Source: Fructobacillus fructosus KCTC 3544 (lineage in GTDB: Bacteria > Bacillota > Bacilli > Lactobacillales > Lactobacillaceae). Taken from it: 64,000 bases of DNA. Location: positions 1 to 64,000 of the forward strand of contig NZ_JQBH01000002.1 in assembly GCF_001438695.1 (NCBI RefSeq). The letters are read 5' to 3'. A model generated the notes under the pieces. The model saw nothing but the letters and a program-made list of their open reading frames with translations. It did not search any database and was not told the DNA's origin. A program made the translations under genes and the position numbers. Below are positions 8,699 to 49,095 of the stretch, piece by piece; within the stretch, counting starts at the first letter, position 1; each line of letters begins with the position of its first letter.

Positions 8699-8737
8699 CT
8701 TGTTCTCCTCTAGAAAGCAACACCTGCTTGCCCTTTT

Positions 8738-9532
8738 TTATTTCAGTAGGTGCTTTCGAATGGCACCGGATAACCAATCAATGACCGTCACCATTAAGAT
8801 GATGCCAATCAAAATGATCCCAACGCGTGACCAAGAACGGTTAGACAGGGCGAAAATCAAAGGAGCCCCGACACCACCCGCACCAACAATTCCAAGAATG
8901 GAAGCTGAACGGACGGCAATCTCAAACCGGTAAAGGGTGAAGTTAATGAATTCCGGTAAGACGGCTGGTAAAGTCGCCCAACTTAATGCATCGAGCCGGT
9001 TCCCACCTGCTGAAATGATGGCTTCTTCCGGACCGCGATCAATGTTTTCAATTGCTTCAGAGAAGAGTTTTCCCATCATTCCAATTGAGTGGACCCCCAT
9101 TGCCAAGACACCGGCAAAGGCTCCTGGCCCAACGGCTTTAATGAACATAATGGCTAAAACAAGTTCAGGAAAAACACGAATCAGTGTTAATAAGAATTTA
9201 CCAGTGGTTGACCGGACGGAAAATTTCTTACTCGTTTTCGCTGCCCAAAAGGCGAAAGGAACGGCAATGAATGACGAAATAATGGTGCCAAGAAAGGCGA
9301 TTGCTAGCGTTTCAAACAGTGCCGAGATGAGGTCTTCCCCATGGCCACTGTAAACATAGGACCAATCAGGATTAAAAAGACCAGCAAAAATGGCGCCTAA
9401 AATCTGGCCGGCTGAATCCTTCATGCCCTTAAACTCAATTCCTGAAAAGGCCCAAATAACAATGATTAAGGCAATGACTCCTGCCGCATAGGGCTTCAGG
9501 CGACTAGATAATGAGCGTTTTTGAACCATCAT
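8738..9532 (-). CDS. phnE: phosphonate-type ABC transporter permease (second PhnE)
   Basis: 264 residues with about six membrane helices; the first is around residues 15-31. The EAA loop typical of PhnE reads EEAIISAGGNRLDALSWATLP, followed by SILGIVGAGGVGAPLIFAL. It is the inner-membrane channel half of a PhnCDE importer. It overlaps the upstream permease gene by 4 bp (ATGA), so the two are translationally coupled and likely form a heterodimer. No C-P lyase genes are nearby, so phosphonate catabolism is not implied. Confidence 0.9.
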   Translation of the reverse strand: MMVQKRSLSSRLKPYAAGVIALIIVIWAFSGIEFKGMKDSAGQILGAIFAGLFNPDWSYVYSGHGEDLISALFETLAIAFLGTIISSFIAVPFAFWAAKTSKKFSVRSTTGKFLLTLIRVFPELVLAIMFIKAVGPGAFAGVLAMGVHSIGMMGKLFSEAIENIDRGPEEAIISAGGNRLDALSWATLPAVLPEFINFTLYRFEIAVRSASILGIVGAGGVGAPLIFALSNRSWSRVGIILIGIILMVTVIDWLSGAIRKHLLK

Positions 9533-10311
9533 GAGAGCGCCTCCCTGAGTTTATTTGACAGTGCATCGACCAGGACAATAACCACTAAGATGGCTAGAAT
9601 CACGACGGATGTTTGATCGTAGCGGAATGTGTCCAAAGTTGTGTTCAAGTATAAGCCAATCCCACCAGCACCCAGATAACCAAGCACGGCCGAAGCGCGA
9701 ACGTTGATTTCCAGTGTGTAGAGGAAGAAAGACAAGTATTGGTTTAAGACCTGAGGGATGACGGCGAAAACAATGACCTGGGAGCGTTTACCGCCGGCCG
9801 CCCGCATGGCTTCGATTGGTCCTTGGTCAACCGTTTCAATGGCCTCGTACAGTAACTTAAACATCATCCCAAACGAGAAAACGGCCAAGGCCAAGACACC
9901 AGACAAGGTCCCAATGCCGACAACAGCGACGAATAGCGCAGCTAACAGCATTTGTGGAATGGAGCGAATCAGGTTCATCACAAAGCGAATGATGCCCCGA
10001 ACAAAAGCGTTCCGCACAATGTTACTGGCGGCTAAAAAAGCGAACGGAATGGCGGCAATGCCGCCAATTAAGGTTCCCACGATGGCCATCTGCACGGTTT
10101 GAGCTAAGGGAGTCAACACCCTTGGCAGATAAGACCAGTCTGGGTTTGCCATTTTAATCCAAAGATCAGCAAACTGCTCCATTGAAAAGTCCTGCCCGAC
10201 CTGAGTGGCTTGAGCGGATAGCACCACAGCGATGAAAAGCAGCAAAAAGACCGTAAAACCCGTGACGTGCCACTCCTTCATAAATGGGCGTTTTGGTATC
10301 GATTTGTTCAT
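9529..10311 (-). CDS. phnE: phosphonate-type ABC transporter permease (first PhnE)
   Basis: 260 residues, again about six membrane helices, with the PhnE EAA loop IEAMRAAGGKRSQVIVFAVIPQ and the later AVLGYLGAGGIGLYL. It is a paralogue of the following permease (same GGxR...P spacing), as in other two-permease Phn systems. Its ATG shares a base with the phnC stop codon, so the operon is tightly coupled. Confidence 0.9.
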   Translation of the reverse strand: MNKSIPKRPFMKEWHVTGFTVFLLLFIAVVLSAQATQVGQDFSMEQFADLWIKMANPDWSYLPRVLTPLAQTVQMAIVGTLIGGIAAIPFAFLAASNIVRNAFVRGIIRFVMNLIRSIPQMLLAALFVAVVGIGTLSGVLALAVFSFGMMFKLLYEAIETVDQGPIEAMRAAGGKRSQVIVFAVIPQVLNQYLSFFLYTLEINVRASAVLGYLGAGGIGLYLNTTLDTFRYDQTSVVILAILVVIVLVDALSNKLREALS

Positions 10312-11108
10312 TAATCTTCCTCCGCCTCGTCAGTCGCCGTTGCGTGGTCATCCCCCGCTTCCCGGTAGATTTCCTTAAAGTCGCGTTTGTCCACTTCGGC
10401 AATTGGCTTGTCGTAAATAATCTGACCCTCCTTTAGGCCGACAATGCGACTGGCATACTTCAAGGCCAAGCCGATGGAGTGAACGTTTAGAATGATGGTC
10501 ATGCCATCTTCTTCATTTAATTTCTTCAAATCGTTCATAACGACTTTTGTCGTCTTCGGATCCAACCCGGAAACGGGTTCGTCCGCCAGAATAACCGAGG
10601 GTTCCTGCATGAGCGCTCGGGCAATGCCAACACGCTGTTGCTGACCCCCGGAGAGGTCCCTTGCCTTGACGTAGTACTTATCAAGCAGGTTGACCCGGGC
10701 CAGGTTCGCAGCGGCCATTTCCTGGTCTTCCTTCTTAAAAAGGCCAAAAGCGGCTTGCCAGGCTGGATAGTAACCTACTCGTCCCGACATCACGTTACGG
10801 TAGACCGAAGAGGTCTTCACTAGGTTGTAATTTTGGAAAATCATGGCAGCCGAGCGACGAATCTTGTGGAGCTTATCACCTGACGCCTTCGTGATGTCTT
10901 GACCATCAATAAGAATCGCACCTTCCGTGACATCGTGAAGCCGGTTGATGGCCCGTAGCAAAGTCGATTTACCAGAACCCGATAACCCAACAATCATGAC
11001 GAATTCACCATGGCCAATGGTCAGGTTAACGTCCTTTAACCCAACGACCCCGTTTGGATAAACCTTCGATACGTCTTTTAACTCAATGTTTCCCTTTTTG
11101 TCTAACAT
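10311..11108 (-). CDS. phnC: phosphonate-type ABC transporter ATP-binding protein
   Basis: 265 residues. Walker A GLSGSGKST (about 42-50), the Q-loop in MIFQNYNLV, signature LSGGQQQRVGIARAL, Walker B VILADEPVSGLDP, and the switch histidine in ILNVHSIGLA. The PhnC subfamily is indicated by the long insertion between the Q-loop and the signature motif (MSGRVGYYPAWQAAFGLF) and by its neighbours. Start set at the ATG at 11108 with AGAGG upstream; the open frame extends to 11180 but lacks a ribosome site there. It energises import through the two PhnE subunits. Ends with an acidic tail. Confidence 0.92.
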   Translation of the reverse strand: MLDKKGNIELKDVSKVYPNGVVGLKDVNLTIGHGEFVMIVGLSGSGKSTLLRAINRLHDVTEGAILIDGQDITKASGDKLHKIRRSAAMIFQNYNLVKTSSVYRNVMSGRVGYYPAWQAAFGLFKKEDQEMAAANLARVNLLDKYYVKARDLSGGQQQRVGIARALMQEPSVILADEPVSGLDPKTTKVVMNDLKKLNEEDGMTIILNVHSIGLALKYASRIVGLKEGQIIYDKPIAEVDKRDFKEIYREAGDDHATATDEAEED

Positions 11109-11198
11109 AAGAACCTCTTCAGCGCTGCTACCAGCGTTTTTTTCATATAAAATGGCTACCAGCCAATCGGCGGTAACCATCTAAGACTTTATTAGTGA

Positions 11199-12404: not shown

Positions 12405-13460
12405 TCAGTTTTTTAATAGCTTTTCGGCAACCAAACGTTCAGCAATTTCGACCGTATTCCATGCCGCTCCCTTGAGTAAGTTATCCGAAACAACCCAGAG
12501 GTGAAAGGCGTTTGGATTCTCTTGATCAGCTCGAACACGTCCAACAAACGTTTCACGCTTTCCCTCAGCTGTTAGTGGCTGCGGGTAGAGCTGCTGACTG
12601 GAATCGCCTTGGAGGACCAGACCCTCCCCTGCAGAAAGAACTGAGCGAATCGCTTGTGCGGTTGCCTTTTCATCGTTCACTTCAATGTAGACGGATTCAC
12701 CGTGTGAAATGGGTACAGGAACCCGAACACAGGTTGCCGTCACTTTAAGGTCTTCGGCATCCATGTCGTTCAACAAAATCTTCTTTGTCTCATGAATCAT
12801 CTTCCACTCTTCATGGGTGTAACCATCTTCTTCGAAGACATCAATCTGTGGCAGGAGGTTAAAGGCCAATGGATAGTGTTTTTTGTCACTGGCTGTTGGT
12901 AAAATATTGGCCGTCATTTCCTTTCCGGCAAGATAATCACGGCTTTCTTGGAAGAATTCGTTAAGAGCAGATTGCCCTGCTCCGGAGGCTGCTTGATAAG
13001 TGGAAACAATGATCTGTTTTAAGCCAAAACGTTCGAAAATTGGTTTCAAGGCCACGACCATTTGAATGGTCGAACAGTTCGGGTTGGCAATGATTCCCTG
13101 GTGATTTCGGAGTTGTTCCGGATTCACCTCTGGGACAACCAGTGGAACCGTTGGGTCCATTCGGAAGGCGGATGTGTTATCAATGCAGACCGCCCCGCGT
13201 TTCATCGCTTCCGGTAATAAACGCTTGGAAACGGCGCCTCCTGCAGAGGCCAAGACAATGTCAACACCGTCAAAGGCGTCAGCTGTTGCCTCCTCAATCA
13301 CAACGGCTTTTCCCTTAAAAGGCAAGGTCTTTCCAGCTGATTGCGCTGAAGCGAGAAGTTTGATGGTTCCGACCGGAATCGTTGATTGCTCGAGCTGTTC
13401 GATTAGACGGGTGCCAACGGCGCCTGTTGCGCCAAGAATAGCGACGGTGTATGTTTTCAT
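12405..13460 (-). CDS. asd: aspartate-semialdehyde dehydrogenase, lysine-operon copy
   Basis: 351 residues. NADP-binding GATGAVGTRLIEQL at the N-terminus, catalytic cysteine in NPNCSTIQMV (about residue 128), and active-site histidine in VPISHGESVYIE. It reduces aspartyl phosphate to aspartate semialdehyde, the branch point to lysine or threonine/methionine. It is the last gene of the riboswitch-controlled lysine operon, 10 bp after the aminotransferase gene. A paralogue at 34099 sits with thrC, so this copy is probably dedicated to lysine and cell-wall diaminopimelate. AGGAGA site before the ATG. Confidence 0.93.
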   Translation of the reverse strand: MKTYTVAILGATGAVGTRLIEQLEQSTIPVGTIKLLASAQSAGKTLPFKGKAVVIEEATADAFDGVDIVLASAGGAVSKRLLPEAMKRGAVCIDNTSAFRMDPTVPLVVPEVNPEQLRNHQGIIANPNCSTIQMVVALKPIFERFGLKQIIVSTYQAASGAGQSALNEFFQESRDYLAGKEMTANILPTASDKKHYPLAFNLLPQIDVFEEDGYTHEEWKMIHETKKILLNDMDAEDLKVTATCVRVPVPISHGESVYIEVNDEKATAQAIRSVLSAGEGLVLQGDSSQQLYPQPLTAEGKRETFVGRVRADQENPNAFHLWVVSDNLLKGAAWNTVEIAERLVAEKLLKN

Positions 13461-19582: not shown

Positions 19583-19836
19583 AAAAAAAACTCCTGTACG
19601 AAGTGGTTAACACTTCATACAAGAGAATCCAATGGTTCACAAAAAATTAACTGGTTTCAAATGTCGAAAGCGCAACACGATTAAATCGTGACAGTCCATC
19701 GCCTATTGAACGATGTCCCAGCTTACCCCAGCCTGTGTAGCTGAAGCGCTTCGGCAACCTTGCCTTTCGGTTAGCGTCGTTGTCCACACAGGAACTCGAC
19801 TAACTTACTCATCGCGGTTGCAACCTCTTCGATGTC
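19583..19836 (-). ncRNA. lysine riboswitch (L box) with expression-platform terminator
   Basis: The minus-strand leader carries the L-box core: AGAGGTTGCAACCGCGATGAGTAA at its 5' end (about 19812-19836, of which the AGAGG and GATGAGTAA parts are diagnostic), then GAAAGGCAAGGTTGCCGAAG, and CTGGGACATCG. Downstream a strong hairpin (19590-19625; CTCTTGTATGAAGTG / CACTTCGTACAGGAG) plus eight T forms the terminator. Bound lysine should cause premature termination and shut off all seven lysine genes from lysA to asd. Confidence 0.93.
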
Positions 19837-19840
19837 TCAA

Positions 19841-20010: not shown

Positions 20011-21384
20011 ATGACAAGGGTTGTGAAATTTGGGGGTTCTTCCCTAGCGAACGGACCACAGTATGAGAAAGTTACTCAGATTATCATGGCGAATCATGAG
20101 CGTCGGATTGTGGTGGTTTCTGCACCAGGTAAACGAGACGAAAATGATCAAAAGGTCACCGATCTCTTAATCCAATACGCGACTTTATCAGAACTAGACC
20201 AAAATATTGAAAACATTCAAAAAACACTGGTCGCGAGATACGAAGCGATTGCTCAGTATTTTAAGCTATCACCCAGTGATTTCAAAACAATTCGTGAGAC
20301 AATCATCCAGTTACCCCATCTCTTTGCAGGGAAGGGAAATGACCGTCTTGCTTATTTTAAGGCCCATGGTGAGAAATTAAACGCGATGCTAATGGCGCTT
20401 ATTTTGCAAAAACTGGGTCAGCGGGCTCGCTTTGTGGACCCAGCCGAACTTGGGTTGGTTGTGACCGGACAACCCGATAGTGCAACCATTACAGAAGAAA
20501 GCTATACCAACATAAAACATTTCAAAATAAGTGACGATGAAATCTTGGTGATTCCTGGCTTTTATGGCGTGACCAAAAAAGGCGATATTGCCACCTTCGC
20601 TCGTGGTGGTTCGGACATTACTGGCTCCATTGTGGCTAGAGGGTTTGGTGTTCATTTGTACGAAAACTTTACGGACGTCTCTTCGGTTTACGCAGCGAAT
20701 CCGAACATCGTCGACCGACCAGTCGCCATCGAACAAATGACGTATCGTGAAATGCGAGAGCTTTCCTATGCCGGCTTTTCCGTTTTTAACGATGAAGCCA
20801 TTATTCCTGCCATTCAAGGACAGGTCACCATCAATGTTAAGAATACAAACCGTCCCAATGATCCTGGAACACGAATCATTCCCGAACATGACTTTCACCC
20901 CAGCCACCCCATCACCGGTGTCAGCAATTCTGATCACTTTTCAGCCTTGTACTTGCACCGCTACTTACTAAACCAAGAGGTCGGTTTGACGCTCAAATTA
21001 CTGCAAATTTTTTACCGCTATAACATCTCTTATGAACACATGCCTTCTGGAATTGACGATTTAACCATTATTTTTGATAATCGGCAGTTAACGGAGGATA
21101 AAATTCAAGCACTTTGTGCCGATATCGAAGAAACGCTTGAACCGGATGCCATGCAATGGATTGAAGATTACACAATCATCATGATTGTTGGTGAGGGTAT
21201 GTTTTTAAAGCCAACAACCGTAGCTGAAGCCATTTCGGCCCTAACGATGAATGGTATCGAGGTGAACATGATTAACCAAGGAGCCTCACAAATTTCAGCC
21301 ATGATTGGTACGAAGAAAAAGGACGCCAAACACGCCGTTGCCACAATTTACCAGCATTTTTTTCAGGAGGATAACCATGACTGA
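20011..21384 (+). CDS. lysC: aspartate kinase, lysine-side copy
   Basis: 457 residues. Catalytic amino acid kinase domain (about 1-300) with VKFGGSSLANG, FARGGSDITGS and FTDVSSVYAANP, then two ACT regulatory domains (about 310-457; IMIVGEGM, MINQGASQISAMI). It phosphorylates aspartate, the first step of the aspartate family. It overlaps dapF by 8 bp. A paralogue at 38888 is grouped with threonine genes, so this copy probably serves lysine/diaminopimelate. The ACT domains suggest feedback inhibition, effector not readable. GGAG site before the ATG. Confidence 0.93.
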   Translation: MTRVVKFGGSSLANGPQYEKVTQIIMANHERRIVVVSAPGKRDENDQKVTDLLIQYATLSELDQNIENIQKTLVARYEAIAQYFKLSPSDFKTIRETIIQLPHLFAGKGNDRLAYFKAHGEKLNAMLMALILQKLGQRARFVDPAELGLVVTGQPDSATITEESYTNIKHFKISDDEILVIPGFYGVTKKGDIATFARGGSDITGSIVARGFGVHLYENFTDVSSVYAANPNIVDRPVAIEQMTYREMRELSYAGFSVFNDEAIIPAIQGQVTINVKNTNRPNDPGTRIIPEHDFHPSHPITGVSNSDHFSALYLHRYLLNQEVGLTLKLLQIFYRYNISYEHMPSGIDDLTIIFDNRQLTEDKIQALCADIEETLEPDAMQWIEDYTIIMIVGEGMFLKPTTVAEAISALTMNGIEVNMINQGASQISAMIGTKKKDAKHAVATIYQHFFQEDNHD

Positions 21385-34098: not shown

Positions 34099-35160
34099 CT
34101 ATAGCAAGTTCATTTCGACCATTTTTTCGGCAATTTCAACGGTGTTCCAAGCCGCACCCTTCAACAGATTGTCCGAAACGATCCAAAGATGAAAGGCGCC
34201 TGGATTTTCCAAATCGGCCCGAATACGTCCGACGAAAGTCTCCCGCTTTCCTTCCGCCTCAACCGGCTGTGGGTAAACCTGGTGCGCCACATCGTCTTCC
34301 AAGACAACACCAGGAAAATCGACCATCAACTGGCGAATGTCAGCTACCGTGGCTTGTTCATCCCCCGTCTGCACATAGACACTCTCTCCGTGTCCGATAA
34401 TGACTGGAACACGTACGGCAGTCCCCGTGACTTTCATTTCCCTACTATCCTTATCATCCAACAGGATTTTCTTCGTTTCATGAATCATCTTGTATTCTTC
34501 GTGCGTGTAGTCACCGTCTTCAAAGACATCAATCTGAGGCAGTAAGTTAAAGGCCAGTGGATAGTGCTTTTTATCGGACTTAACGGGTAGAATCTTAGCA
34601 TGTTCAGCCATTGATTGACCGTTCAACCGAGCCTGCGCCTCCGCTTTAACTTCATCAATCGCCGCTTGACCAGCACCAGATGCCGCTTGGTAAGTTGAAA
34701 TAATCACCTGATCCAGGCCAAAACGATCATGAATTGGCTTTAACGCCATGACCAGCTGTGTCGTTGAACAGTTGGGGTTTGCAATAATGCCCTTATGATG
34801 AAGCAGGGCTTCGGGATTAACTTCCGGCACCACTAAGGGCACGTTGTTATCCATGCGCCAGTAGGAAGAATTATCAATCACAACGGCCCCAGCCTTGACT
34901 GCAGCCGGTGCCAAGTTCTTTGAAACCGAGCCGCCAGCCGATGCCAGAACAAGGTCAACCCCTTCAAATGAGGATGGTGTTGCTTCTTCCACCGTAAGAA
35001 CCTCGTGTCCAAAGGGCACTTTTTCACCAGCAGACTTCGCCGATGCGAGTGCCCGAACAGTCCCATAAGGAATGGTGGACTGCTGTAATTGATCCAAAAT
35101 GCGGCGACCAACGGCACCAGTGGCACCTAAAACCGCAACGGTTAACTTCTTCTCTGACAT
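34099..35160 (-). CDS. asd: aspartate-semialdehyde dehydrogenase, threonine-operon copy
   Basis: 353 residues and clearly paralogous to the copy at 12405. GATGAVGRRILDQL, catalytic Cys in NPNCSTTQLV and His in VIIGHGESVYVQ. It follows thrC by 11 bp on the same strand, so it should supply semialdehyde for threonine and methionine. The two copies differ throughout (for example in the QARLNGQSMAEH insertion region), so duplication is not recent. GGAG site before the ATG. Confidence 0.93.
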   Translation of the reverse strand: MSEKKLTVAVLGATGAVGRRILDQLQQSTIPYGTVRALASAKSAGEKVPFGHEVLTVEEATPSSFEGVDLVLASAGGSVSKNLAPAAVKAGAVVIDNSSYWRMDNNVPLVVPEVNPEALLHHKGIIANPNCSTTQLVMALKPIHDRFGLDQVIISTYQAASGAGQAAIDEVKAEAQARLNGQSMAEHAKILPVKSDKKHYPLAFNLLPQIDVFEDGDYTHEEYKMIHETKKILLDDKDSREMKVTGTAVRVPVIIGHGESVYVQTGDEQATVADIRQLMVDFPGVVLEDDVAHQVYPQPVEAEGKRETFVGRIRADLENPGAFHLWIVSDNLLKGAAWNTVEIAEKMVEMNLL

Positions 35161-37995: not shown

Positions 37996-38870
37996 TTACC
38001 ATAAAAGTCCCGGCGACATCCGCCAACCTCGGTCCAGGTTTCGATACACTCGGGCTAGCTCTTGACTCCTATTTGGAACTCACAATTGAACAAAAAAGCC
38101 CAAACTGGTTCATCAAACACGCCTTTGGTCCACATATTCCAACAGACGAGCAAAACCTAATTGTTTCTTCAGCTCTGTCGATAGACGCTAACCTCCCCGC
38201 CCATACCTTACAGGTTCATTCGCCCATTCCCCTTGCCAGAGGCTTGGGCTCCTCTTCATCAGCCATCGTGGCTGGTATTGTCTTGGCCCATGTGTTAAGA
38301 AACGAAACCGTGAGTCGACAGCAGGTTTTTCAAGAAGCAGCGGCCATCGAAGGCCATCCCGATAACGTGGCGCCCGCTGTTTTTGGTGGCTTACAACTTT
38401 CTTCAGTCACCGAAGAGGGGCGCTTTTCAAGCACGACCCTTCCTTTCCCCGAAGAATTAATTGGATTGGCACTCATCCCCAACTATGCCGTTTCGACTAA
38501 AAAAGCACGGGCCATCTTACCAAAAAAACTCCGCTACAAGCAGGTGGTCCAACAGGGAAATGCTCTGGCTCGCTTGATTGCAGCCTGTTATACCACCGAT
38601 GCTGGAGCGCTTCGCCAACTGGTCGAAGAAGATCAAATCCATGAACAGTACCGAGCACGACTTTGTCCTGCCCTTCCGAAAGTGCGCGAATTGGAAGCCA
38701 GCATGGGGATTCACGGCTCCTATCTTTCGGGAGCTGGTCCAACCATCATGACCTTGGCTACGGCAGACGAAATAAAGCGACTACAAGCACCATTGGCTGA
38801 GCTCCAAAAAGACGCAATCGTTCAAAAGATGCCGATTAGTCAGCAAGGTTATCAAATCATTCAACAGTGA
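37992..38870 (+). CDS. thrB: homoserine kinase
   Basis: 292 residues of GHMP kinase fold. VPATSANLGPGFDTLGLAL at the N-terminus, the ATP loop PLARGLGSSSSAIVAG, and the C-terminal GSYLSGAGPTIMTL. It makes phosphohomoserine for ThrC. ATGA overlap with hom shows coupling. Confidence 0.95.
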   Translation: MITIKVPATSANLGPGFDTLGLALDSYLELTIEQKSPNWFIKHAFGPHIPTDEQNLIVSSALSIDANLPAHTLQVHSPIPLARGLGSSSSAIVAGIVLAHVLRNETVSRQQVFQEAAAIEGHPDNVAPAVFGGLQLSSVTEEGRFSSTTLPFPEELIGLALIPNYAVSTKKARAILPKKLRYKQVVQQGNALARLIAACYTTDAGALRQLVEEDQIHEQYRARLCPALPKVRELEASMGIHGSYLSGAGPTIMTLATADEIKRLQAPLAELQKDAIVQKMPISQQGYQIIQQ

Positions 38871-38887
38871 AAGGCAGTGAATTGAAT

Positions 38888-40243
38888 ATGAAAGTCATTA
38901 AGTTTGGTGGTTCATCATTGGCCAACGGACAACAATTTGAGCGTGTCGTGAACATTATTCGAGAAGATTCCCAAAGGCAGGTTGTCGTAACCTCCGCTCC
39001 TGGGAAATCCGCCACCGAATCAGTCAAAGTCACGGACATGCTGTTACAATACGCCGAATCTTGTATTAGTGGCCATCCTGATGAGCAGCTACTCAAAGCG
39101 ATTAAGGTGCGTTACCGCCAAATTGCTGACAACTTTGACGTCAGCGAAGTAGATTTAGCGACGATTACCGACCAGTTAGATGCCCTGAACCAGGCACACT
39201 ACCCTAGTTATCGACAACTACGCGAATACTTTGCTGCCCATGGTGAACTGCTCAACGCCCAGCTGTTAGCACTGATTCTTCAATCACAGGGCGTGCCGGC
39301 ACGCTTCGTCTTACCCACCCAGATTCGTTTCGAGTCTAAAAAGAATGATGAAGCCGTCTTTGATGAAGAAAAGAGTTTGGATCGTTTAGCTACCTTTCCT
39401 GTGGAAAAAGACGTGGTCTATGTCTTTCCTGGTTTCTTTGGTTTCGACCAGCACAATCGCATTCGAACTTTTTCACGCGGTGGTTCGGACATCACGGGCG
39501 CCATCCTCGCGGAGGGTTTGCAGGCTAGTCTATACGAAAACTTCACCGATGTTTCAGCCATTGCGACGGTTGACCCAAACGTTATTGCCAACCCAGAGCC
39601 GATTCAGGCCATGTCTTATTCCGAAATGCGGGAACTTTCCTACGCCGGTTTTAACGTCTTTCACGACGAAGCGATTATCCCAGCCATTCACGGGCAGGTA
39701 CCGATTTGCGTCAAAAACACCAACGATCCAGATGCCTTGGGTACTTGGATTGGTCCGGCTAGTCAACTCAAGGATTCTCGTAACATCACCGGAATTGCCT
39801 GCACCAAGCACTTCGCTGCCCTCTACTTGCATCGTTACTTGCTAAACCGTGATAGCCAGTTTACCCGCCGACTTCTTGCACTCATGGCTGACTACAAGAT
39901 TTCTTATGAGCACATGCCCAGTGGAATTGATGATTTAACGGTTATTTTCAACCGCGAAAACCTCAGCGAAAAACAGCTCCAAGAATTTGTACAGGCTGTT
40001 CGGCAGGAACTAGCTCCCGACATCATCCGTTTGCACGACCAACTCGCCATCATTATGGTCGTTGGTCAGGGAATGAAAAACCGGTCCGGTGCTCTTGAAC
40101 AAATCATTGCCCCACTGGCAAAAGAAAAAATTTCCTTACAAATGGTCAACCAGGGTGCTTCCGAAATTGCCATTATGCTAGCCGTCGACGAAGAGGATGC
40201 AAAGCGGGCCATTAAGGCCATTTACGACTCGGAGTTTGCTTAA
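38888..40243 (+). CDS. aspartate kinase, threonine-side copy
   Basis: 451 residues from the ATG at 38888 (an in-frame GTG at 38867 lacks a ribosome site). VIKFGGSSLANG, SRGGSDITGAI, FTDVSAIATVDP, then two ACT domains (IMVVGQGM, MVNQGASEIAIML). It is paralogous to the copy at 20011 with the same architecture. Third gene after hom and thrB, so probably feedback-regulated by threonine or methionine rather than lysine; this is inference from position. Confidence 0.93.
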   Translation: MKVIKFGGSSLANGQQFERVVNIIREDSQRQVVVTSAPGKSATESVKVTDMLLQYAESCISGHPDEQLLKAIKVRYRQIADNFDVSEVDLATITDQLDALNQAHYPSYRQLREYFAAHGELLNAQLLALILQSQGVPARFVLPTQIRFESKKNDEAVFDEEKSLDRLATFPVEKDVVYVFPGFFGFDQHNRIRTFSRGGSDITGAILAEGLQASLYENFTDVSAIATVDPNVIANPEPIQAMSYSEMRELSYAGFNVFHDEAIIPAIHGQVPICVKNTNDPDALGTWIGPASQLKDSRNITGIACTKHFAALYLHRYLLNRDSQFTRRLLALMADYKISYEHMPSGIDDLTVIFNRENLSEKQLQEFVQAVRQELAPDIIRLHDQLAIIMVVGQGMKNRSGALEQIIAPLAKEKISLQMVNQGASEIAIMLAVDEEDAKRAIKAIYDSEFA

Positions 40244-40344: not shown

Positions 40345-41169
40345 CTATTGCTTCGGCACAACCCAATACTTCGTATCGTTATGTTTTTGAACAAACTCTG
40401 CAAAGTCTTTTGATTGGTAAGCCTTTTTAACCGCTTTCGCCCATGCCTTATTTTTATCCTTCTGGTTGACTGTTGCCACGAGGTAGTAAGCATCCGCCAA
40501 CTTCTCTTGATAAAGAATGTCAGAAGATGGCACCTTAGCCGGATAGGAATCCGAACCAGGCAAGACCACGTAGGCAAATTCGTTTCGAACACGTGGAATT
40601 GTGTATGATTCCATTTCCTTAAACTTCAATCCATTTGGATTTTCAGCAATATCCTTTTGAGTTAACTTGATTTCGTTGACACCTGACTTTAACTTAATTA
40701 AGCCAGCCTGGGCAAGCAATCGGTAAGCACGTGACATGTTGGATGGATCGTTTGGAATGGCGATGGTATCGCCTGCTGCTACATCGTTCAAGTTATGTTT
40801 TTCCCCAGTATAAAGTCCCATTGGTACTGTCGGGATCTTGACAATGCCTGTTAAATGACCATGCTTCTCTTTATTAAAATTATCGAGGTAGGCTGTGTGT
40901 TGGTCAACATTTAAATCGGCTTCGCCATTATTTAAAGCAATGTCGGCGTTCAATAGCACGCTAAAATTCTTTGAACGAACTTGATACCCCTCTTTTTCAA
41001 GGATTGGTTTCACCCCATCCAAAAACATTTCACTATAGGGACAAGGTGAAGTGGCAACGGTAATGATTTTATCCGCATTTTTGTCATGCTTAGGTGCAAA
41101 AGAAAAGTAGGCCACGCCAACGACTACGAATGCAGCTAGGGTACTAAAAATTATTTTTTTCTTACTCAT
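40345..41169 (-). CDS. MetQ/NlpA-family substrate-binding protein without lipobox
   Basis: 274 residues. An N-terminal membrane segment (residues 5-25) is followed by the NlpA fold: ITVATSPCPYSEMFLD, GEADLNVDQHTAYL, TVPMGLYTGEKHN, AIPNDPSNMSRAYRLLAQAGLI. The family binds methionine for the MetNIQ importer. The N-terminal segment has no cysteine, so there is no lipoprotein anchor. No metN or metI is adjacent, so the ABC partner must be elsewhere. It follows the PLP enzyme gene by 8 bp and shares its methionine T-box. Confidence 0.85.
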   Translation of the reverse strand: MSKKKIIFSTLAAFVVVGVAYFSFAPKHDKNADKIITVATSPCPYSEMFLDGVKPILEKEGYQVRSKNFSVLLNADIALNNGEADLNVDQHTAYLDNFNKEKHGHLTGIVKIPTVPMGLYTGEKHNLNDVAAGDTIAIPNDPSNMSRAYRLLAQAGLIKLKSGVNEIKLTQKDIAENPNGLKFKEMESYTIPRVRNEFAYVVLPGSDSYPAKVPSSDILYQEKLADAYYLVATVNQKDKNKAWAKAVKKAYQSKDFAEFVQKHNDTKYWVVPKQ

Positions 41170-41177
41170 CTCTCCCC

Positions 41178-42338
41178 CTAATTCTGTGCAACTTGAAAGG
41201 ACTGTTCCAAGTCGGCAATCAAGTCCTCAGGGTCTTCCAAGCCAACGGACAGCCGGACCAAATTCGGCTTAATACCGGCTTTTTCCCGTTCTTCAACGGG
41301 TAGTTCGAGGTGGGTCATGAAGTATGGCAGCTCAATCAGACTTTCAACCGATCCAAGGCTGACGGCCAGCCAGATTAACTTTGTATTGTTCACCAACTTC
41401 TTAGCGTCAACGCCTTCCTTCACTTCAAAGGAAATGACACCCCCAAAACCACGTAGTTCCGTCTTGGCAATCTGGTCTGATTCATCCCCAGCTTGACCAG
41501 GATAATAAAGGTTATCAATGACATCCGTTCTTGTTTCCAAATAGTCCAATACCTGACGTGCGTTTGCCAAATGACGGTCCAAACGCACTGACAACGTCTT
41601 GATACCACGAATAACAAGGGCCGAGTCTTGCGGTGACAGAATCCCTCCAATGGCGTTTTGGGCAAAGTAAAGTTGATCACCGAAATCTTGATCATTTGTC
41701 ACAACTAAGCCAGCAATCACGTCGGAGTGGCCAGCCAAATACTTAGTAGCCGAGTGAATGACCACGTCGGCGCCCAGTTGCAGTGGCTGCTGCAAGTATG
41801 GGGTCAAGAAGGTATTATCCACGATGACTTTGGCAGAACGGTCGTGGGCAATGTTGGCAATTTGGCGGATACTCGTGACTTTCAGGAAGGGATTGTCAAT
41901 CGGCTCAAAGTAAATCGCCTTGGTGTTTTCTTGGAAAGCATCCGCCACTTCTGCCAGATTTTGCGTATCGACGGCCGTAAAGTCGATGTTCAACTGCGTC
42001 AAGTAGTCATAAATTAAACGAAACGTACCGCCATAAATGTGCTTAGCCACAATGATGTGGTCGCCAGGCCGAAAAGCTGAAAAAGTCGCGTGAATGGCGG
42101 CGCTTCCAGAGGCAAAGGCAAAACCCCGGCTAGCCCCTTCGAGAGCGGCAATTTGGTTTTCCAAATATTCTCGTGTGGGATTAAGAGACCGTGAGTAATC
42201 ATACTTATTCACCGCATCAATATCTTTAAATGCAAAAGTCGATGAATGATAGATGGGGACGTTCACCGCACCCGTATTGTTATCCGTTAACTTATTCAGA
42301 CCCTTACCAAAAATGAGTTTCGTGTTAAATCCTGTCAT
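41178..42338 (-). CDS. Cys/Met metabolism PLP enzyme (cystathionine gamma-synthase / beta-lyase type)
   Basis: 386 residues of the transsulfuration family. YDYSRSLNPTREYLENQIAALEG, FAFASGSAAIHATFSAF, the VDNTFLTPYLQQPL segment, and PLP lysine in HSATKYLAGHSDV (about residue 198). These enzymes make or cleave cystathionine in methionine synthesis. A methionine T-box leader and the nearby metA and metE support that pathway. Synthase, beta-lyase and gamma-lyase activities cannot be separated by eye, so metB/metC is left open. Confidence 0.88.
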   Translation of the reverse strand: MTGFNTKLIFGKGLNKLTDNNTGAVNVPIYHSSTFAFKDIDAVNKYDYSRSLNPTREYLENQIAALEGASRGFAFASGSAAIHATFSAFRPGDHIIVAKHIYGGTFRLIYDYLTQLNIDFTAVDTQNLAEVADAFQENTKAIYFEPIDNPFLKVTSIRQIANIAHDRSAKVIVDNTFLTPYLQQPLQLGADVVIHSATKYLAGHSDVIAGLVVTNDQDFGDQLYFAQNAIGGILSPQDSALVIRGIKTLSVRLDRHLANARQVLDYLETRTDVIDNLYYPGQAGDESDQIAKTELRGFGGVISFEVKEGVDAKKLVNNTKLIWLAVSLGSVESLIELPYFMTHLELPVEEREKAGIKPNLVRLSVGLEDPEDLIADLEQSFQVAQN

Positions 42339-42356: not shown

Positions 42357-42492
42357 ATTAAAAAAGTCCCGTAGTCAAAAGACTACGGGACGACTAAATC
42401 GTGTTACCACCCTGATTCTAATTAGCATCACTACTAATCACTCGATGGGTACGTCAAAAAGAGATACCCTAACGCGATAACGGGCGCACCCG
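42357..42492 (-). repeat. inverted repeat copy A (T-box 3' half)
   Basis: About 136 bp that is nearly identical, in inverted orientation, to 44000-44135. It covers stem III, the T-box sequence and the terminator (CGGGTGCGCCCGTTATCGCG ... GTCCCGTAGT, identical over long stretches). Confidence 0.85.
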
Positions 42493-42624
42493 GTACAAGC
42501 TAGCATTCACGCTCACCTATACAAAACTCGAGGACCATTTTTCAAAGGTTTTCGTTCATCAACTCACACCAACGTTGATTCTCTGGGCAACAGCCACCTT
42601 TTACTTTTCCTGTCGCGGTTTGTT
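42359..42624 (-). ncRNA. methionine T-box leader (for metC-like-metQ-like)
   Basis: Minus-strand leader with the T-box sequence GGGTGGTAACACG (42400-42412), a GC-rich intrinsic terminator (GTCCCGTAGT / ACTACGGGAC, 42366-42392) followed by six T, and a candidate ATG specifier (42504-42506) in GTGAGCGTGAATGCTAGC. The TGGT of the T-box pairs with ACCA, agreeing with the A discriminator of methionine tRNA. Uncharged tRNA-Met should allow readthrough. Confidence 0.88.
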
Positions 42625-42630
42625 GAAGAC

Positions 42631-42660
42631 AGTCTATCAAGACTTTTTTTGTTTTGTCAA
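42631..42660 (-). promoter_or_regulatory. promoter of the metC-like T-box unit
   Basis: -35 TTGACA (42655-42660), 18-bp spacer, -10 TAGACT (42631-42636). Confidence 0.7.
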
Positions 42661-42685
42661 GTTAAAAATTAAAATAAAATGATAG

Positions 42686-42714
42686 TTGACAATTTTTAAT
42701 TTCACGTATAAACT
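42686..42714 (+). promoter_or_regulatory. promoter of the metA T-box unit
   Basis: -35 TTGACA (42686-42691), 17-bp spacer, -10 TAAACT (42709-42714). Its -35 is only 25 bp from the -35 of the divergent unit. Confidence 0.6.
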
Positions 42715-42720
42715 AACTCA

Positions 42721-42995
42721 CAATTTCATAAAATGAACTTTTTTAGAGAAGATTTCTTCGGAACATTAAGGTTAAAGTGAACGTCGTAAAGTGAGAAGGC
42801 GCCCTTATACTGAAGAATGGATGGGCTCAATTATTAAAGGCAGACTGTGCAAGCAGCTGTCCGGTAGGAACCGTTATTTTCCCTGACATGTTTGTGTTGT
42901 AGAGGCTCGCACTGCAAAGTGCCAGCGAAATTGGGTGGTACCACGAAAGCATTCGTCCCATGGTTTAAAAATCATGGAATGACTGCTTTTTTTAT
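42721..42995 (+). ncRNA. T-box leader of metA
   Basis: T-box sequence GGGTGGTACCACG (42933-42945) followed by a terminator stem around CCATG / CATGG (42957-42980) extended by AGCATTC / GAATGACTGCT and seven T. A stem III-like hairpin (CGCACT / AGTGC) precedes it. It is unlike the two flanking leaders in sequence. The TGGT again fits an A discriminator (methionine possible; cysteine tRNA normally has U). The specifier codon could not be placed with certainty; an ATG lies in CCCTGACATGTTTG near 42887. Confidence 0.8.
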
Positions 42996-43015
42996 TTGTA
43001 CGTAAGGAGAAAAAA

Positions 43016-43810
43016 ATGGGACGAATCAACATTTTAAATGGCTATAACAAGAACGCGGATGAACGGGAAAAACAGGCAATTGACCTCGTTATTGTCAATT
43101 TAATGCCCACTCGGGCAGAAACCGAACACCAATTTATTTCGGTTTTGAAGTTAACCCCTTACAACTTTAACCTGACTTTTGCTGGGATGGCCACTCACCG
43201 TTATCGTCATTTTGAACGAGACATTCGGGCAATTTACACAACTTTGGATCAAATTCGTGACCAAAAGTTCGATGCCCTGATTATAACTGGTGCGCCCCTC
43301 GACCAAATCCCTTTTTCAGAAGTCGATTACTGGGCTGAGTTTCAAGATTGGGTGAATTGGCGGAAAGAACATGTCCAAACGTCCCTCTTTACCTGTTGGG
43401 CCGCTTGGGCAGCGGGCGAAATCGACCGGCTTTTTAAGGGACAAGCGCTTTCACATAAAATCTGCGGTATCTACCAAAGCAATGGCTACACCATTCCCCA
43501 TTCCCGTTATTTTACAATTGACCAAGATAGTATCACCCATTCCGCAACGGTACTAGCTGGCACAAAACAATTGGGTGCGACAATCGTTAAAGAAGAACAG
43601 AGTGCCAGTTATTACGTGACTGGACACTTGGAATACAGCACCCAAACCCTGGCCAATGAATTTGCGCGGGACCAACAACAGCAAAAGAAGGTCAAAGCGC
43701 CAGAAAATTATTTCTTGTTACAAGGGGCACCAAAAAATACCTGGCAGCGCTCAACCAGACGCTTCTTTCGTGAATGGCTAGCTCCTTTTCAAGAACGAAA
43801 ATTAAAATAA
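43016..43810 (+). CDS. metA: homoserine O-acyltransferase family protein (MetA type)
   Basis: 264 residues, shorter than E. coli MetA (309) because the usual N-terminal extension is lacking. INILNGYN, VNLMPTRAETEHQF, catalytic cysteine in SLFTCWAAWAAG (about residue 122) and histidine in VTGHLEYSTQTL (about 205). It activates homoserine with acetyl- or succinyl-CoA for methionine synthesis. In some lactic acid bacteria relatives act as serine acetyltransferases, so the acceptor is not certain. Lies between two methionine T-box units. AAGGAGA site before the ATG. Confidence 0.85.
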   Translation: MGRINILNGYNKNADEREKQAIDLVIVNLMPTRAETEHQFISVLKLTPYNFNLTFAGMATHRYRHFERDIRAIYTTLDQIRDQKFDALIITGAPLDQIPFSEVDYWAEFQDWVNWRKEHVQTSLFTCWAAWAAGEIDRLFKGQALSHKICGIYQSNGYTIPHSRYFTIDQDSITHSATVLAGTKQLGATIVKEEQSASYYVTGHLEYSTQTLANEFARDQQQQKKVKAPENYFLLQGAPKNTWQRSTRRFFREWLAPFQERKLK

Positions 43811-43823
43811 ATTAATTTTTTTG

Positions 43824-43852
43824 TTGACAAAGGGATGTTATACCGGTATATT
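43824..43852 (+). promoter_or_regulatory. promoter of metE-metF-cystine transporter unit
   Basis: -35 TTGACA (43824-43829), 17-bp spacer, -10 TATATT (43847-43852). It lies only 14 bp after the metA stop. Confidence 0.75.
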
Positions 43853-43859
43853 TTTGGTA

Positions 43860-44135
43860 AATTATGAAACGTTGATGAGATAAGTAAAGTTCAGCGGCAA
43901 GTAAAGAGAGCCAACGTTTGGTGAAAGTTGGTCTTGTCAAGGACTTGAAAATGGTCTTGGAGTTGTGTAATCGGGTGAGTTTTGACATGAGCCTGATTCG
44001 GGTGCGCCCGTTATCGCGTTAGGGTATCTCACTTTTGACGTACCTATCAAGTAGTTAGTAGTGATGCTAACTAGAACCTGGGTGGTAACACGATTCCGTC
44101 GTCCCGTAGTCTTTTGACTACGGGACTTTTTTATT
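43860..44135 (+). ncRNA. methionine T-box leader of metE
   Basis: T-box sequence GGGTGGTAACACG (44080-44092), terminator stem GTCCCGTAGT / ACTACGGGAC (44101-44126) with six T, and candidate ATG specifier at 43987-43989 in GTGAGTTTTGACATGAGCC, in the same place as in the metC-like leader. The 3' 136 bases are almost identical to the inverted copy at 42357-42492. Confidence 0.9.
44000..44135 (+). repeat. inverted repeat copy B (T-box 3' half)
   Basis: Partner of copy A at 42357-42492. The two face each other across metA, about 1.5 kb apart. Confidence 0.85.
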
Positions 44136-44182: not shown

Positions 44183-46450
44183 ATGGCTACAACAATTATT
44201 GGATTCCCCCGCATTGGAGAAAATCGCGAATTGAAGCGTGCGCTCGAAAAGTATTGGAAACAAGAAATCAATCAAGCTGAATTGAAACAAGTAGCGCAGG
44301 AATTAAAAGAAAAAAACTGGCATAAGCAAGCGGAGGCCGGCTTATCATACGTTGCCGCTGGGGATTTTTCTTTCTTCGACAACCTGCTCGATTTAGCTAA
44401 CTTACTAAATATCGTGCCCAAGCGCTACCAAAAATTGGGACTTGATGCATTGGACACCTACTTCGCCCAGGCACGTGGGTACCAATCGAAGCAAGCATCG
44501 GTGAAGGCTTTACCCTTAAAGAAGTGGTTCAATACCAACTATCATTACTTAGTTCCTGAATTTGACGACCAAACGATCATCAAAATTCAAGACAGTTTCT
44601 TCTTCGAAGACGTCGAACAGGCTCTTGTCCAACACAATCAGGTGAAAGCTTCACTAATCGGACCATTCACGCTATTAAAGCTTGCTAATTTTACAGGTCA
44701 GAAACAGGCAAACGATTTCGTACCAGCAATCATTCAGGCTTATCAAGACATCTTCAAACGACTCAGCCAAACGAAATTGGCCTGGTTACAGATTGATGAA
44801 CCGGCATTAGTCTTTGATTTAACAAAAGAAGATCGCCAGTTGTTTAATAAGCTTTACCAGGAATTATTATCCGAAAAGCACTCGTTCAAAGTCAATTTAC
44901 AAACTTACTTTGGGGACGTCCGGGACGTCTATACGGATTTGTTAGCCTTGGACTTTGACGGTATTGGCTTAGATTTCGTCGAAGGAAAGGAAAGCTTGGC
45001 GCTTGTTCAAGAACACGGTTTCCCTGCGAACAAAACACTCTTTGCCGGTGTCTTGAACGGAAAAAACATTTGGCGCAATCACTATAGCAAAACCGTTAGC
45101 TTACTAAAAGAGCTACCAGTACGCAATAACTTGGTCATCTCCACTTCCTCTTCTTTACTCCATGTTCCCTACAACGTTGAAAACGAAAGTGAGTTGTCAG
45201 AAGACATTCAAGGCCACCTTTCCTTTGCCTACCAAAAACTAACTGAATTACACGATTTGGAAGGCATTTTCTTCCGTGGTGAAACGGAGGCACAATTCAA
45301 AAATGATCAGTTGTTTGAAAACATTAAGCACCCCACTAACCAAAACGTTACAACCCGTCTGCAACAATTAACGGAGGCCGACTTTATTCGCCAACCAGAA
45401 CGTGCAAAACGCGAAGTAATTCAAAAGAAACGTTTTAACTTACCTGAGTTACCAACCACAACGATTGGTTCTTTCCCGCAAACACAAGATGTGCGGACAA
45501 ACCGTTCTCGGTTCCGTAAGGGCGAAATTAGCCAAGCTGAATACCAGACTTTCATTGATGAAAAAATCAAACGCATCATTAACTGGCAAGAAGAAGCTGG
45601 CTTTGATGTCTTAGTGCATGGTGAATACGAGCGAAATGACATGGTCGAGTATTTCGGCGAAAACCTCGATGGTTTTGTCTTCACGAAGAAGGCTTGGGTA
45701 CAGTCATACGGTAGCCGTGCCGTTAAGCCACCAATTATTTGGGGAGACGTTAGTCGGAAAAAAGCCATCACAGTCGCTACTTCTGTTTACGCACAATCCC
45801 TGACGAATAAGCCTGTGAAGGGAATGTTGACTGGACCAGTTACCATCTTCAACTGGTCTTTCCCTCGCGAGGATATTTCTGCCAAAGAATCGGTTACCCA
45901 GATTGCGTTGGCCATTCAAGACGAAGTCTTAGACCTGGAAAAAAACGGCATTGCCATCATTCAGATTGATGAAGCCGCCCTTCGCGAAAAGCTACCGTTA
46001 CGCAAGACGGATTGGTACAGCCAATACCTCGACTGGGCCATCCCCGCCTTTAAGTTGGTCCACAGTAAGGTCCAGGAAAGCACACAAATTCACACGCACA
46101 TGTGCTACAGCGAATTTAACGATATCATTCAAGCCATTGATGCCCTCGATGCCGACGTCATTTCTTTTGAAGCATCGCGATCTGATTTGTCCATTATTGA
46201 TGAGCTTAAGAAGCATCATTTTGAGACAGAAGTTGGACCAGGTGTCTATGATATTCACTCTCCCCGTATCCCAAGTGCCGAAGAAATTCATGGTATTATC
46301 CAAAATATTCTCGCCAAGTTACCAGTTGCTAAAGTCTGGATCAATCCGGACTGTGGTTTGAAGACCCGTGCCGAGGCAGACGTCTTTACAAGTCTCGAAA
46401 ACTTAATTACAGCAACACGGGAAACACGGGCAGCTCTCAGAAAGGATTAG
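44183..46450 (+). CDS. metE: cobalamin-independent methionine synthase
   Basis: 755 residues, two-barrel enzyme of normal length. N-terminal GFPRIGENRELKRALEKYW, C-terminal TTTIGSFPQTQDVR, zinc ligands in IHTHMCYSEFND and in NPDCGLKTR, and the substrate residues in IIQIDEAALREKLP. It transfers methyl from 5-methyl-tetrahydrofolate (polyglutamate) to homocysteine. GAGGAGG site; first gene of the T-box operon, 2 bp before metF. Confidence 0.96.
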   Translation: MATTIIGFPRIGENRELKRALEKYWKQEINQAELKQVAQELKEKNWHKQAEAGLSYVAAGDFSFFDNLLDLANLLNIVPKRYQKLGLDALDTYFAQARGYQSKQASVKALPLKKWFNTNYHYLVPEFDDQTIIKIQDSFFFEDVEQALVQHNQVKASLIGPFTLLKLANFTGQKQANDFVPAIIQAYQDIFKRLSQTKLAWLQIDEPALVFDLTKEDRQLFNKLYQELLSEKHSFKVNLQTYFGDVRDVYTDLLALDFDGIGLDFVEGKESLALVQEHGFPANKTLFAGVLNGKNIWRNHYSKTVSLLKELPVRNNLVISTSSSLLHVPYNVENESELSEDIQGHLSFAYQKLTELHDLEGIFFRGETEAQFKNDQLFENIKHPTNQNVTTRLQQLTEADFIRQPERAKREVIQKKRFNLPELPTTTIGSFPQTQDVRTNRSRFRKGEISQAEYQTFIDEKIKRIINWQEEAGFDVLVHGEYERNDMVEYFGENLDGFVFTKKAWVQSYGSRAVKPPIIWGDVSRKKAITVATSVYAQSLTNKPVKGMLTGPVTIFNWSFPREDISAKESVTQIALAIQDEVLDLEKNGIAIIQIDEAALREKLPLRKTDWYSQYLDWAIPAFKLVHSKVQESTQIHTHMCYSEFNDIIQAIDALDADVISFEASRSDLSIIDELKKHHFETEVGPGVYDIHSPRIPSAEEIHGIIQNILAKLPVAKVWINPDCGLKTRAEADVFTSLENLITATRETRAALRKD

Positions 46451-46452
46451 CA

Positions 46453-47370
46453 ATGGATGTGTCCGAACTTTTTAAGAACAAGACGGTCTTTTCAATCGAA
46501 ATTTTCCCACCAAAAACAGCTTTGGGACGAGAAAAATTAATGACTTCTCTGTTAGAAATTAGAGATATTCAACCTGATTTCATTTCAATCACGCAATCAG
46601 CGGCCGCCTGTTTTAACGAGCAACGAACGTTAGCCATAGCCCAAGCAATCCAGCAAAAGCTTGGTATTGCGACCATTGCTCACGTCCCCTGCCTTTACCG
46701 AACGAAAGAAGAGGTCAAAGACTACTTAACGGACCTAGAGGCAGCCGGTGTGCAGAATATTCTGGCGCTGCGTGGGGATGCAGGTAATCAGCAAATTTGT
46801 CCAAGAGACTTTACCTATGCCAGTGATCTCATTAACTTCATTAACAGGAACGGACACTTTGATATTTCTGCCGCTGCCTACCCGCAAAAGCACCCCGAAT
46901 CGAGTGACGTTGTGTCCGATACACTGCATCTAAAGGAAAAAGTGCAGGCAGGAGCCAAGCACTTAATCACCCAAATGGTCTTTGATAACCAAGACTACTG
47001 GGAATTTAAGGAGCGACTGGCCCTTGCCGACATTCATGTCCCTGTTGAAGTGGGCATATTGCCCTGCACCAACTCCAGGCAAATCAAACGAATTACCAAA
47101 ATGTCTGGCATTAAACTCCCCAAAAAATTCCTGGCCATCACCGAGCGTTACGCAGACGATCCCGTCGCCATGCGTGATGCGGGCCTCGCCTATGCAATCG
47201 ACCAAATTGTTGACTTGATTGCCAATGGCGTTGACGGAATTCACCTCTATACCATGAACAACATGGAAAATACTCGACACATTTGGAATGCCATCAAAAA
47301 CCTACTTCCCGACCAAACGGTTAGTCAAAGCCAATGTACTTTTGTTGAAAAAGAACGTGTTCGTGGCTAG
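46453..47370 (+). CDS. metF: methylenetetrahydrofolate reductase
   Basis: 305 residues of an FAD-binding TIM barrel. FSIEIFPPKT at the N-terminus, SITQSAAACFNEQRT, ILALRGDAGN, and HLITQMVFDNQDYWEF are family landmarks. It makes 5-methyl-tetrahydrofolate for MetE, encoded immediately upstream. FAD binding near ALRGD. No separate ribosome site stronger than the end of metE (GAAAGGA). Confidence 0.93.
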   Translation: MDVSELFKNKTVFSIEIFPPKTALGREKLMTSLLEIRDIQPDFISITQSAAACFNEQRTLAIAQAIQQKLGIATIAHVPCLYRTKEEVKDYLTDLEAAGVQNILALRGDAGNQQICPRDFTYASDLINFINRNGHFDISAAAYPQKHPESSDVVSDTLHLKEKVQAGAKHLITQMVFDNQDYWEFKERLALADIHVPVEVGILPCTNSRQIKRITKMSGIKLPKKFLAITERYADDPVAMRDAGLAYAIDQIVDLIANGVDGIHLYTMNNMENTRHIWNAIKNLLPDQTVSQSQCTFVEKERVRG

Positions 47371-48890: not shown

Positions 48891-49095
48891 TCGACAAAGT
48901 CGTCTTGAATATGCTATCTTATTGGAGTAGCAAAGCTACAAAATAAAAATTGTCCACTGGGGTGCCAATACGGCTGAGATGATACCCATTGAACCTGATT
49001 CTAGTTAATACTAGCGTAGGAACGTGGTCACTTGATCTTTTTTTAATGGATTCAGTGTCAGCACTTTCTGCCAAGCGTGGAAAGTGCTTTTTTTG
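48891..49095 (+). ncRNA. TPP riboswitch with promoter and terminator
   Basis: Promoter TCGACA (48891-48896), 18-bp spacer, TATCTT (48915-48920). Aptamer at about 48950-49030 with the THI-box landmarks CTGGGGTGCC, GGCTGAGATGATACCC, GAACCTGAT and TAGCGTAGGAACGTGG. Terminator stem AGCACTTTC / GAAAGTGCT (49060-49088) plus seven T. Thiamine pyrophosphate should switch tenA off. Confidence 0.95.

Follow-up and report, generated by a model that had tools for sequence, protein, structure and literature searches.

The window, a stretch of 64,000 nt from contig C12 of the Fructobacillus fructosus KCTC 3544 genome (1,484,857 bases, 45 contigs), carries a cluster of methionine genes with three methionine T-boxes, one each before metC, metA and metE-metF; a metQ-like gene follows metC. 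A metC/metB-type PLP enzyme gene, here called metC (41178..42338, minus strand), matches Pfam Cys_Met_Meta_PP with 454.4 bits, and the 25 NCBIfam matches listed for it, of 47, all fall under their own cut-offs. The gene for a MetQ/NlpA-type lipoprotein (40345-41169) lies on the same strand, begins 8 bp past metC, and is probably controlled by the metC T-box.

On the plus strand, metA (43016..43810) encodes a member of the homoserine O-acyltransferase family with a short N-terminus (Pfam HTS, 215.1 bits; NCBIfam MetA_acetyl, 203.6 bits, far under the cut-off of 460.5). Compared with the family profiles, ~22-24 positions are missing from the start of the protein, and the open frames of its nearest homologues are similar in length. 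It is followed by metE, for cobalamin-independent methionine synthase (44183..46450, plus strand; TIGR01371, 1022.6 bits, cut-off 929.95), and metF, for methylenetetrahydrofolate reductase (46453..47370, plus strand; TIGR00676, 300 bits, cut-off 293.7). Promoter-like elements were recognised by eye ahead of the metC leader (TTGACA-18-TAGACT, 42631..42660, minus strand) and the metE leader (TTGACA-17-TATATT, 43824..43852, plus strand).

T-box leaders of this kind sense uncharged tRNA(Met) by way of an AUG specifier and the T-box; an antiterminator competes with a terminator, and tRNA binding leads to readthrough. The leaders were searched for with the Rfam covariance model RF00230 (gathering cut-off 93 bits), and its positions 1-219 are covered in all three leaders alike. 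The metE leader (43863..44109, plus strand) scores 109.4 bits (E 2.9e-23), and the metC leader (42383..42625, minus strand), with AUG specifier, stem I, stem III, T-box and antiterminator region, scores 92.7 bits, just below the cut-off. The metA leader (42733..42963, plus strand) is of a different T-box lineage and scores below the cut-off (47 bits, E 1.9e-9).

In the metC and metE leaders the specifier AUG stands before GGUC, as placed by the Rfam alignment, and in the metA leader an AUG specifier was identified by eye only. The T-box GGGUGGUAACACG is present, and its UGGN bulge would pair with the acceptor end of the tRNA. No tRNA(Met) is found among the 30 tRNA matches listed. The metC leader ends in a terminator hairpin with an 11-bp stem and a U run (42366..42391, minus strand; sequence and fold), and the metE leader in an 11-bp hairpin and U run (44101-44126, plus strand; fold).

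Inverted likeness of the metC and metE leaders

The two leaders point outward from metA, which lies between them, and share long inverted arms. The sequence-only reading had described nearly identical T-box halves in inverted orientation around metA, and this description is borne out. Ungapped arms of 101 nt (42359-42459 and 44033-44133) are 91% complementary, arms of 46 nt (42456-42501 and 43990-44035) are 87% complementary, and a short pair of 22 nt in stem I (42520-42541 and 43948-43969) reaches 86%. The base-by-base comparison of the leaders that it had called for was carried out by global alignment. The 3′ halves, with stem III, T-box and terminator (metC, 42366..42492, minus strand; metE, 43999..44126, plus strand, terminator included), agree in 117 of 128 columns (91%), while the 5′ sensor halves, which contain stem I and the AUG specifier, match at 91 of 148 columns (~61%). 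The longest exact runs common to the two leaders are 36 and 32 nt. It had also held the metA T-box to be unrelated in sequence, in agreement with its separate lineage; the sole direct repeat found between the metA and metE leaders consists of the T-box core (20 nt, 85%).

Closely similar leaders occur elsewhere in the genome. With an E limit of 10 the covariance model finds 26 T-box matches, of which nine exceed the Rfam cut-off and one has an E of 3.86. Five leaders fit the stem III element pattern: those of metE and metC, and one each on contigs C1, C43 and C34. The 3′ halves of these five are 80-91% identical in their ten pairs. By best local alignment within the genome, the metC leader is matched best by the C43 leader and the metE leader by the C1 leader. 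Labels for the genes behind other leaders (metQ, solA, racD, luxS) were given by eye or from recall, with the exception of the MetQ similarity. Two further T-boxes (L006 and L009, G000:C44:10480-10712 and 10892-11124, minus strand) stand in tandem ~180 bp apart, are 82% identical over 196 columns, and precede a gene that appears by eye to be ABC-permease-like.

The likeness of the 3′ halves had been judged far above that of two old T-boxes, a yardstick that fails, since a leader of another species is as similar to metC as metE is: the metQ-type leader of G003, in the same genus, is 92% identical to the metC 3′ half, compared with 91% for metE. The terminator stem and loop are identical in the five genome leaders and in the G003 metQ-type and G002 leaders.

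Arrangement of the cluster in other genomes

Matches to metA were found in 136 of 301 genomes, and metA neighbourhoods were examined in eight of these, in addition to the window and the operons of congeners, with one genome per species. Among named records, the MetA protein matched five loci at 29-31% identity and 47 plasmid records, each of these under 60%. The six closest homologues (48-55% identical; G056, G242, G270, G148, G241 and G170) all lie outside the genus, in three genera. In all six the same arrangement recurs: metC on the minus strand with a T-box, metA on the plus strand with its own T-box lineage, and metE-metF on the plus strand with a T-box; a leader homologous to that of metA sits upstream of metA in each. 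A second metC-like gene lies between the metC-side T-box and metA in G242, G241 and G170. The metE of G242 (L096, ~8682-10125) matches only query residues 1-152 and 425-755, and looks internally shortened, with its T-box and metF retained. At the next locus, in G041, metE-metF is on the opposite strand and metC is present only as a distant paralogue, and the metA of G193 is distant (29%). Among the 13 genomes of the genus, the congeners with a metA match (G001, G003, G005, G009 and G012) carry distant homologues in a different met operon, and MetE is present in four, the window's included.

Since six genomes from three further genera have the same arrangement, sequence comparison indicates that the pair of leaders flanking metA is old. 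This tells against a recent inverted duplication, in which one T-box would have been copied across metA not long ago. The 91% identity of the 3′ halves would fit such an event, as the sequence-only reading had proposed, but leaders of the same kind occupy both places in the six genomes, the metC 3′ half is as close to a congener leader (92%) as to metE, and each of the two leaders has its best genome match elsewhere. The 5′ halves, at ~61%, reject a sisterhood of metE and metC (p-AU 1e-5), which the 3′ halves do not (0.43). With sisterhood rejected by the 5′ halves and old leaders at both places, recent duplication was set aside as very unlikely.

The inverted blocks, with their exact runs of 36 and 32 nt, could also be read as the ends of an invertible segment, recombination across them flipping metA and swapping the promoters and sensor halves of metC and metE. 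The loci with the metC(-)/metA(+)/metE-metF(+) arrangement, window included, show one orientation of metA in seven of seven, and no inversion of metA was seen across these seven species-level loci. Nor are the 5′ halves swapped in the way that the earlier reading had expected from such recombination. Each is closer to its own counterpart in G056 than to the other leader there, the metE half being 72% identical to G056 metE and 63% to G056 metC, and the metC half 62% to G056 metC and 53% to G056 metE. Both sensors read AUG, so a flip of metA would change little. Nothing in the compared sequences indicates recombination that inverts metA, and with one orientation at all seven loci and the sensor halves unswapped, the invertible segment was set aside as extremely improbable.

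Horizontal arrival of the cluster was considered. Within the genus this metA is confined to the window's genome, one of 13, with identities of 36-41% for the other matches, and MetE shares 59-61% identity with its congeners compared with 70% with G056. Against this, the GC and GC3 of the cluster genes are ordinary for the window, and the nearest relatives of the leaders by identity include congeners.

Histories of the two leader halves

Whether the 3′ likeness exceeds expectation was judged among 61 of 62 methionine T-box leaders (1830 pairs; G294, with its motif unmatched, was excluded), with the 3′ half trimmed to ~100 nt. The 3′ half is more alike than the 5′ half in 1700 of the 1830 pairs. 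Such a general bias would suit a history free of conversion, in which the leaders descend from older copies, the constrained stem III, antiterminator and terminator evolve slowly, and metE keeps or regains the states of type II leaders (of which metC's is one); the sharing of one terminator stem and loop by the five genome leaders, the G003 metQ-type leader and that of G002 points the same way. We regard this slow-evolution account as possible, although somewhat short of probable.

It has difficulty with the excess that survives matching for 5′ divergence. The metC-metE pair combines 89% identity in the 3′ half with 61% in the 5′ half, a value equalled by none of the 859 between-genome pairs whose 5′ identity differs by no more than 3 points; the metA-flanking pair of G056 (88% at 65%) is equalled by none of 295 such pairs. 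The corresponding pair of G242 shows little excess (its value is attained by 104 of 842 between-genome pairs), and in four g23 genomes the pair shows none despite the same arrangement, so that constraint is not by itself what keeps the two leaders alike. The 26 same-genome pairs, which omit second copies in several genomes (e.g., G353, G394, G279, G307 and G233) because the leaders came in part from 40 selected stretches, lie on average 1.5 SD above between-genome pairs (mean z), a value reached in none of 5000 label shuffles; these pair statistics are descriptive, the pairs being non-independent and the leaders of the window's genome mutually raised in general.

Two methionine leaders of G317 (C2; L169 and L170, ~90.1 and 97.8 kb) lie 7.8 kb apart in direct orientation. 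Their 3′ halves are 98% identical and their 5′ halves 69%, the strongest excess of the set (1/120). One of them matches a leader of another species, G064, at 99%.

Diagnostic sites and trees were studied in 17 of the 61 leaders, the trees with substitution models without RNA pairing; the G005 leader, with N in part of its T-box, was excluded. With metC as one parent, the maximum chi-square test on metE gave values from 0/2000 to 32/2000 (p 0 to 0.016) in seven of seven comparisons and placed the break at columns 142 to 199; the conserved element CGGGTGCGCCCGTTA starts at column 147. With the G003 metQ-type leader as parent, the test gave 5, 73 and 77 of 2000 (p 0.0025 to 0.039) in three of three comparisons, and the breakpoint of G056 was significant with one of four comparison leaders.

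The diagnostic sites are those that tell apart two types of leader, I and II, within the genus. At the 24 of them to the left of CGGGTGCGCCCGTTA, metE carries 17 type I states, four type II and three of neither type. To the right, eight of nine are type II and one is type I (left-right Fisher p 0.0006), and four type definitions made without metC gave p from 0.00008 to 0.009. The stretch 44014..44072 (plus strand), with all eight of its diagnostic sites type II, is the proposed minimum converted tract. None of the twelve other leaders examined switches type so cleanly; G056 metC is mixed, and metC itself carries a type I state at column 213. The slow-evolution account finds some room here, in that outgroups have several of the metE states as well. 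Of the eight type II sites, about three (columns 162, 208 and 222), with the state present in several outgroup leaders, may be ancestral, and columns 171/204 and 213/232 look, by eye, like base-paired columns, so that the independent events may number three to five and the evidence for conversion of metE rests on few events.

Trees that join metE to its counterparts in G056 (and G242) are rejected by the 3′ halves (p-AU 0.004 to 0.009) and not by the 5′ halves (0.10 and 0.11). The whole-leader tree of the 17 leaders is rejected by the 3′ half (p-AU 0.001) and not by the 5′ half (0.27). The 3′ half still rejects it after metE, metC, G056 metE or G050a is dropped singly (0.002 to 0.008), and since the discordance persists without metE, its cause is wider than the metE leader or this locus alone.

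The contiguous split was compared with 30 random column splits, of which 26 also gave cross-half AU p <0.05 in each direction, and for that reason only the size of the misfit relative to random splits is used. On the whole-leader tree the 3′ half misfits by 33.8 log units, against at most 13.8 for a part of the same size, and the summed misfit of both parts is 36.9, against at most 19.9. The 5′ half has a misfit of 3.1, and the 5′-sized part of one random split reached 19.9. The summed cross-half misfit is 149, against at most 70, and the real split is more discordant than all 30 random ones, which argues against a history free of conversion. On these alignments the two halves of the 17-leader family come out as discordant in history.

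The placement of metE itself is equivocal. Placing it with the four type I leaders of the genus is weakly rejected by the 5′ half (p-AU 0.049; 3′ half, 0.092), and adding G050c to that group gives 0.027 and 0.235; this 5′ tree result goes against a simple type I/type II mosaic. Neither half rejects metE when it is set next to the type II leaders (0.21 and 0.35), nor do the 3′ halves reject a type II group without metE (0.28). A single placement can thus serve both halves, in keeping with descent free of conversion. No 3′ site among the 17 leaders is exclusive to metE and metC, and what points to metC as donor is its overall identity and its nearness.

Taken with the excess likeness, these data incline us, by a modest degree of confidence, to ordinary T-boxes whose terminator halves may have been partly homogenised by ectopic gene conversion. 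The conversion suggested from the sequence alone thus keeps the support of the excess, the breakpoints, the diagnostic sites and the discordance of the halves, and stays unproven, given the lack of exclusive sites among the 17 leaders and the equivocal metE placements.

The methionine T-box leaders form a multicopy family in this lineage. Under partial homogenisation, terminator halves would have been copied between members by ectopic homologous recombination, with the join close to CGGGTGCGCCCGTTA, the conserved element that precedes stem III. The metE leader of the window would then combine a sensor half closest to type I leaders with a terminator half closest to type II leaders (e.g., metC's). 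By identity, the nearest leader to its 5′ half is a luxS-type leader of G012 (77%) and the nearest to its 3′ half is metC (89%). The donor would be a resident type II leader, metC or another; donor, cause and direction alike are inferred. Resident terminator halves would have partly overwritten one another, with the exact runs of 36 and 32 nt as substrate, and runs of that length should suffice for homologous recombination or conversion. Overall, the methionine T-box regulon here is an ordinary one whose two inverted leaders are an old pair, and half-wise homogenisation is plausible for it but unproven.

A broader and more tentative proposal, which we hold to be rather doubtful, is that the leaders consist of two exchangeable modules. 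Terminator halves would be repeatedly homogenised within a genome near the element before stem III, sensor halves would diverge gene by gene, and the resulting concerted evolution would keep the operons of the regulon at one switching threshold.

Relation to known T-boxes and switches

In leader anatomy, AUG specifier, T-box, terminator and place before methionine genes, the leaders are the same as the methionine T-boxes of RF00230, and no mechanistic difference from these is apparent. The metA leader differs from the RF00230 members in being divergent and far under the Rfam cut-off. A methionine T-box before the methionine synthase gene of L. plantarum is among those given in the accessible portions of PMC2494555, which also treat the duplication and spread of whole T-box leaders within genomes; in the genomes covered there, related T-boxes of one amino acid stand before several genes, as they do here. 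Copying of whole T-boxes between genes of one genome is known already. The main text of PMC2494555 makes no mention of recombination or gene conversion, and literal wording for the exchange of single T-box halves, or for gene conversion or concerted evolution of T-boxes, was not found in one open-licence library of papers.

The invertible switches of Clostridioides difficile, as described in the available part of PMC5386303, likewise have inverted repeats close to a leader region. Their flipping is the work of a site-specific recombinase, whereas the window locus shows no sign of flipping, and a metA inversion switch should not be assumed here. Beyond the hint it gives that switch halves may be copied from one gene to another, the locus is unremarkable. 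If terminator halves move apart from sensor halves, trees of whole T-box leaders would mix two histories, and regulatory thresholds could, if this is true, spread through a regulon by recombination.

Other features of the window include a lysine riboswitch (19659-19837, minus strand) before a run of genes resembling lysine synthesis, and a TPP riboswitch (48948-49040, plus strand) before a TenA-like gene, the gene labels being given by eye. Also by eye, there are two aspartate-semialdehyde-dehydrogenase-like genes (12405-13460 and 34099-35160) and two aspartokinase-like genes (20011-21384 and 38867-40243). The open reading frame at 1476-2126 has a GC content of 31%, compared with 45% for the window, and is possibly foreign.
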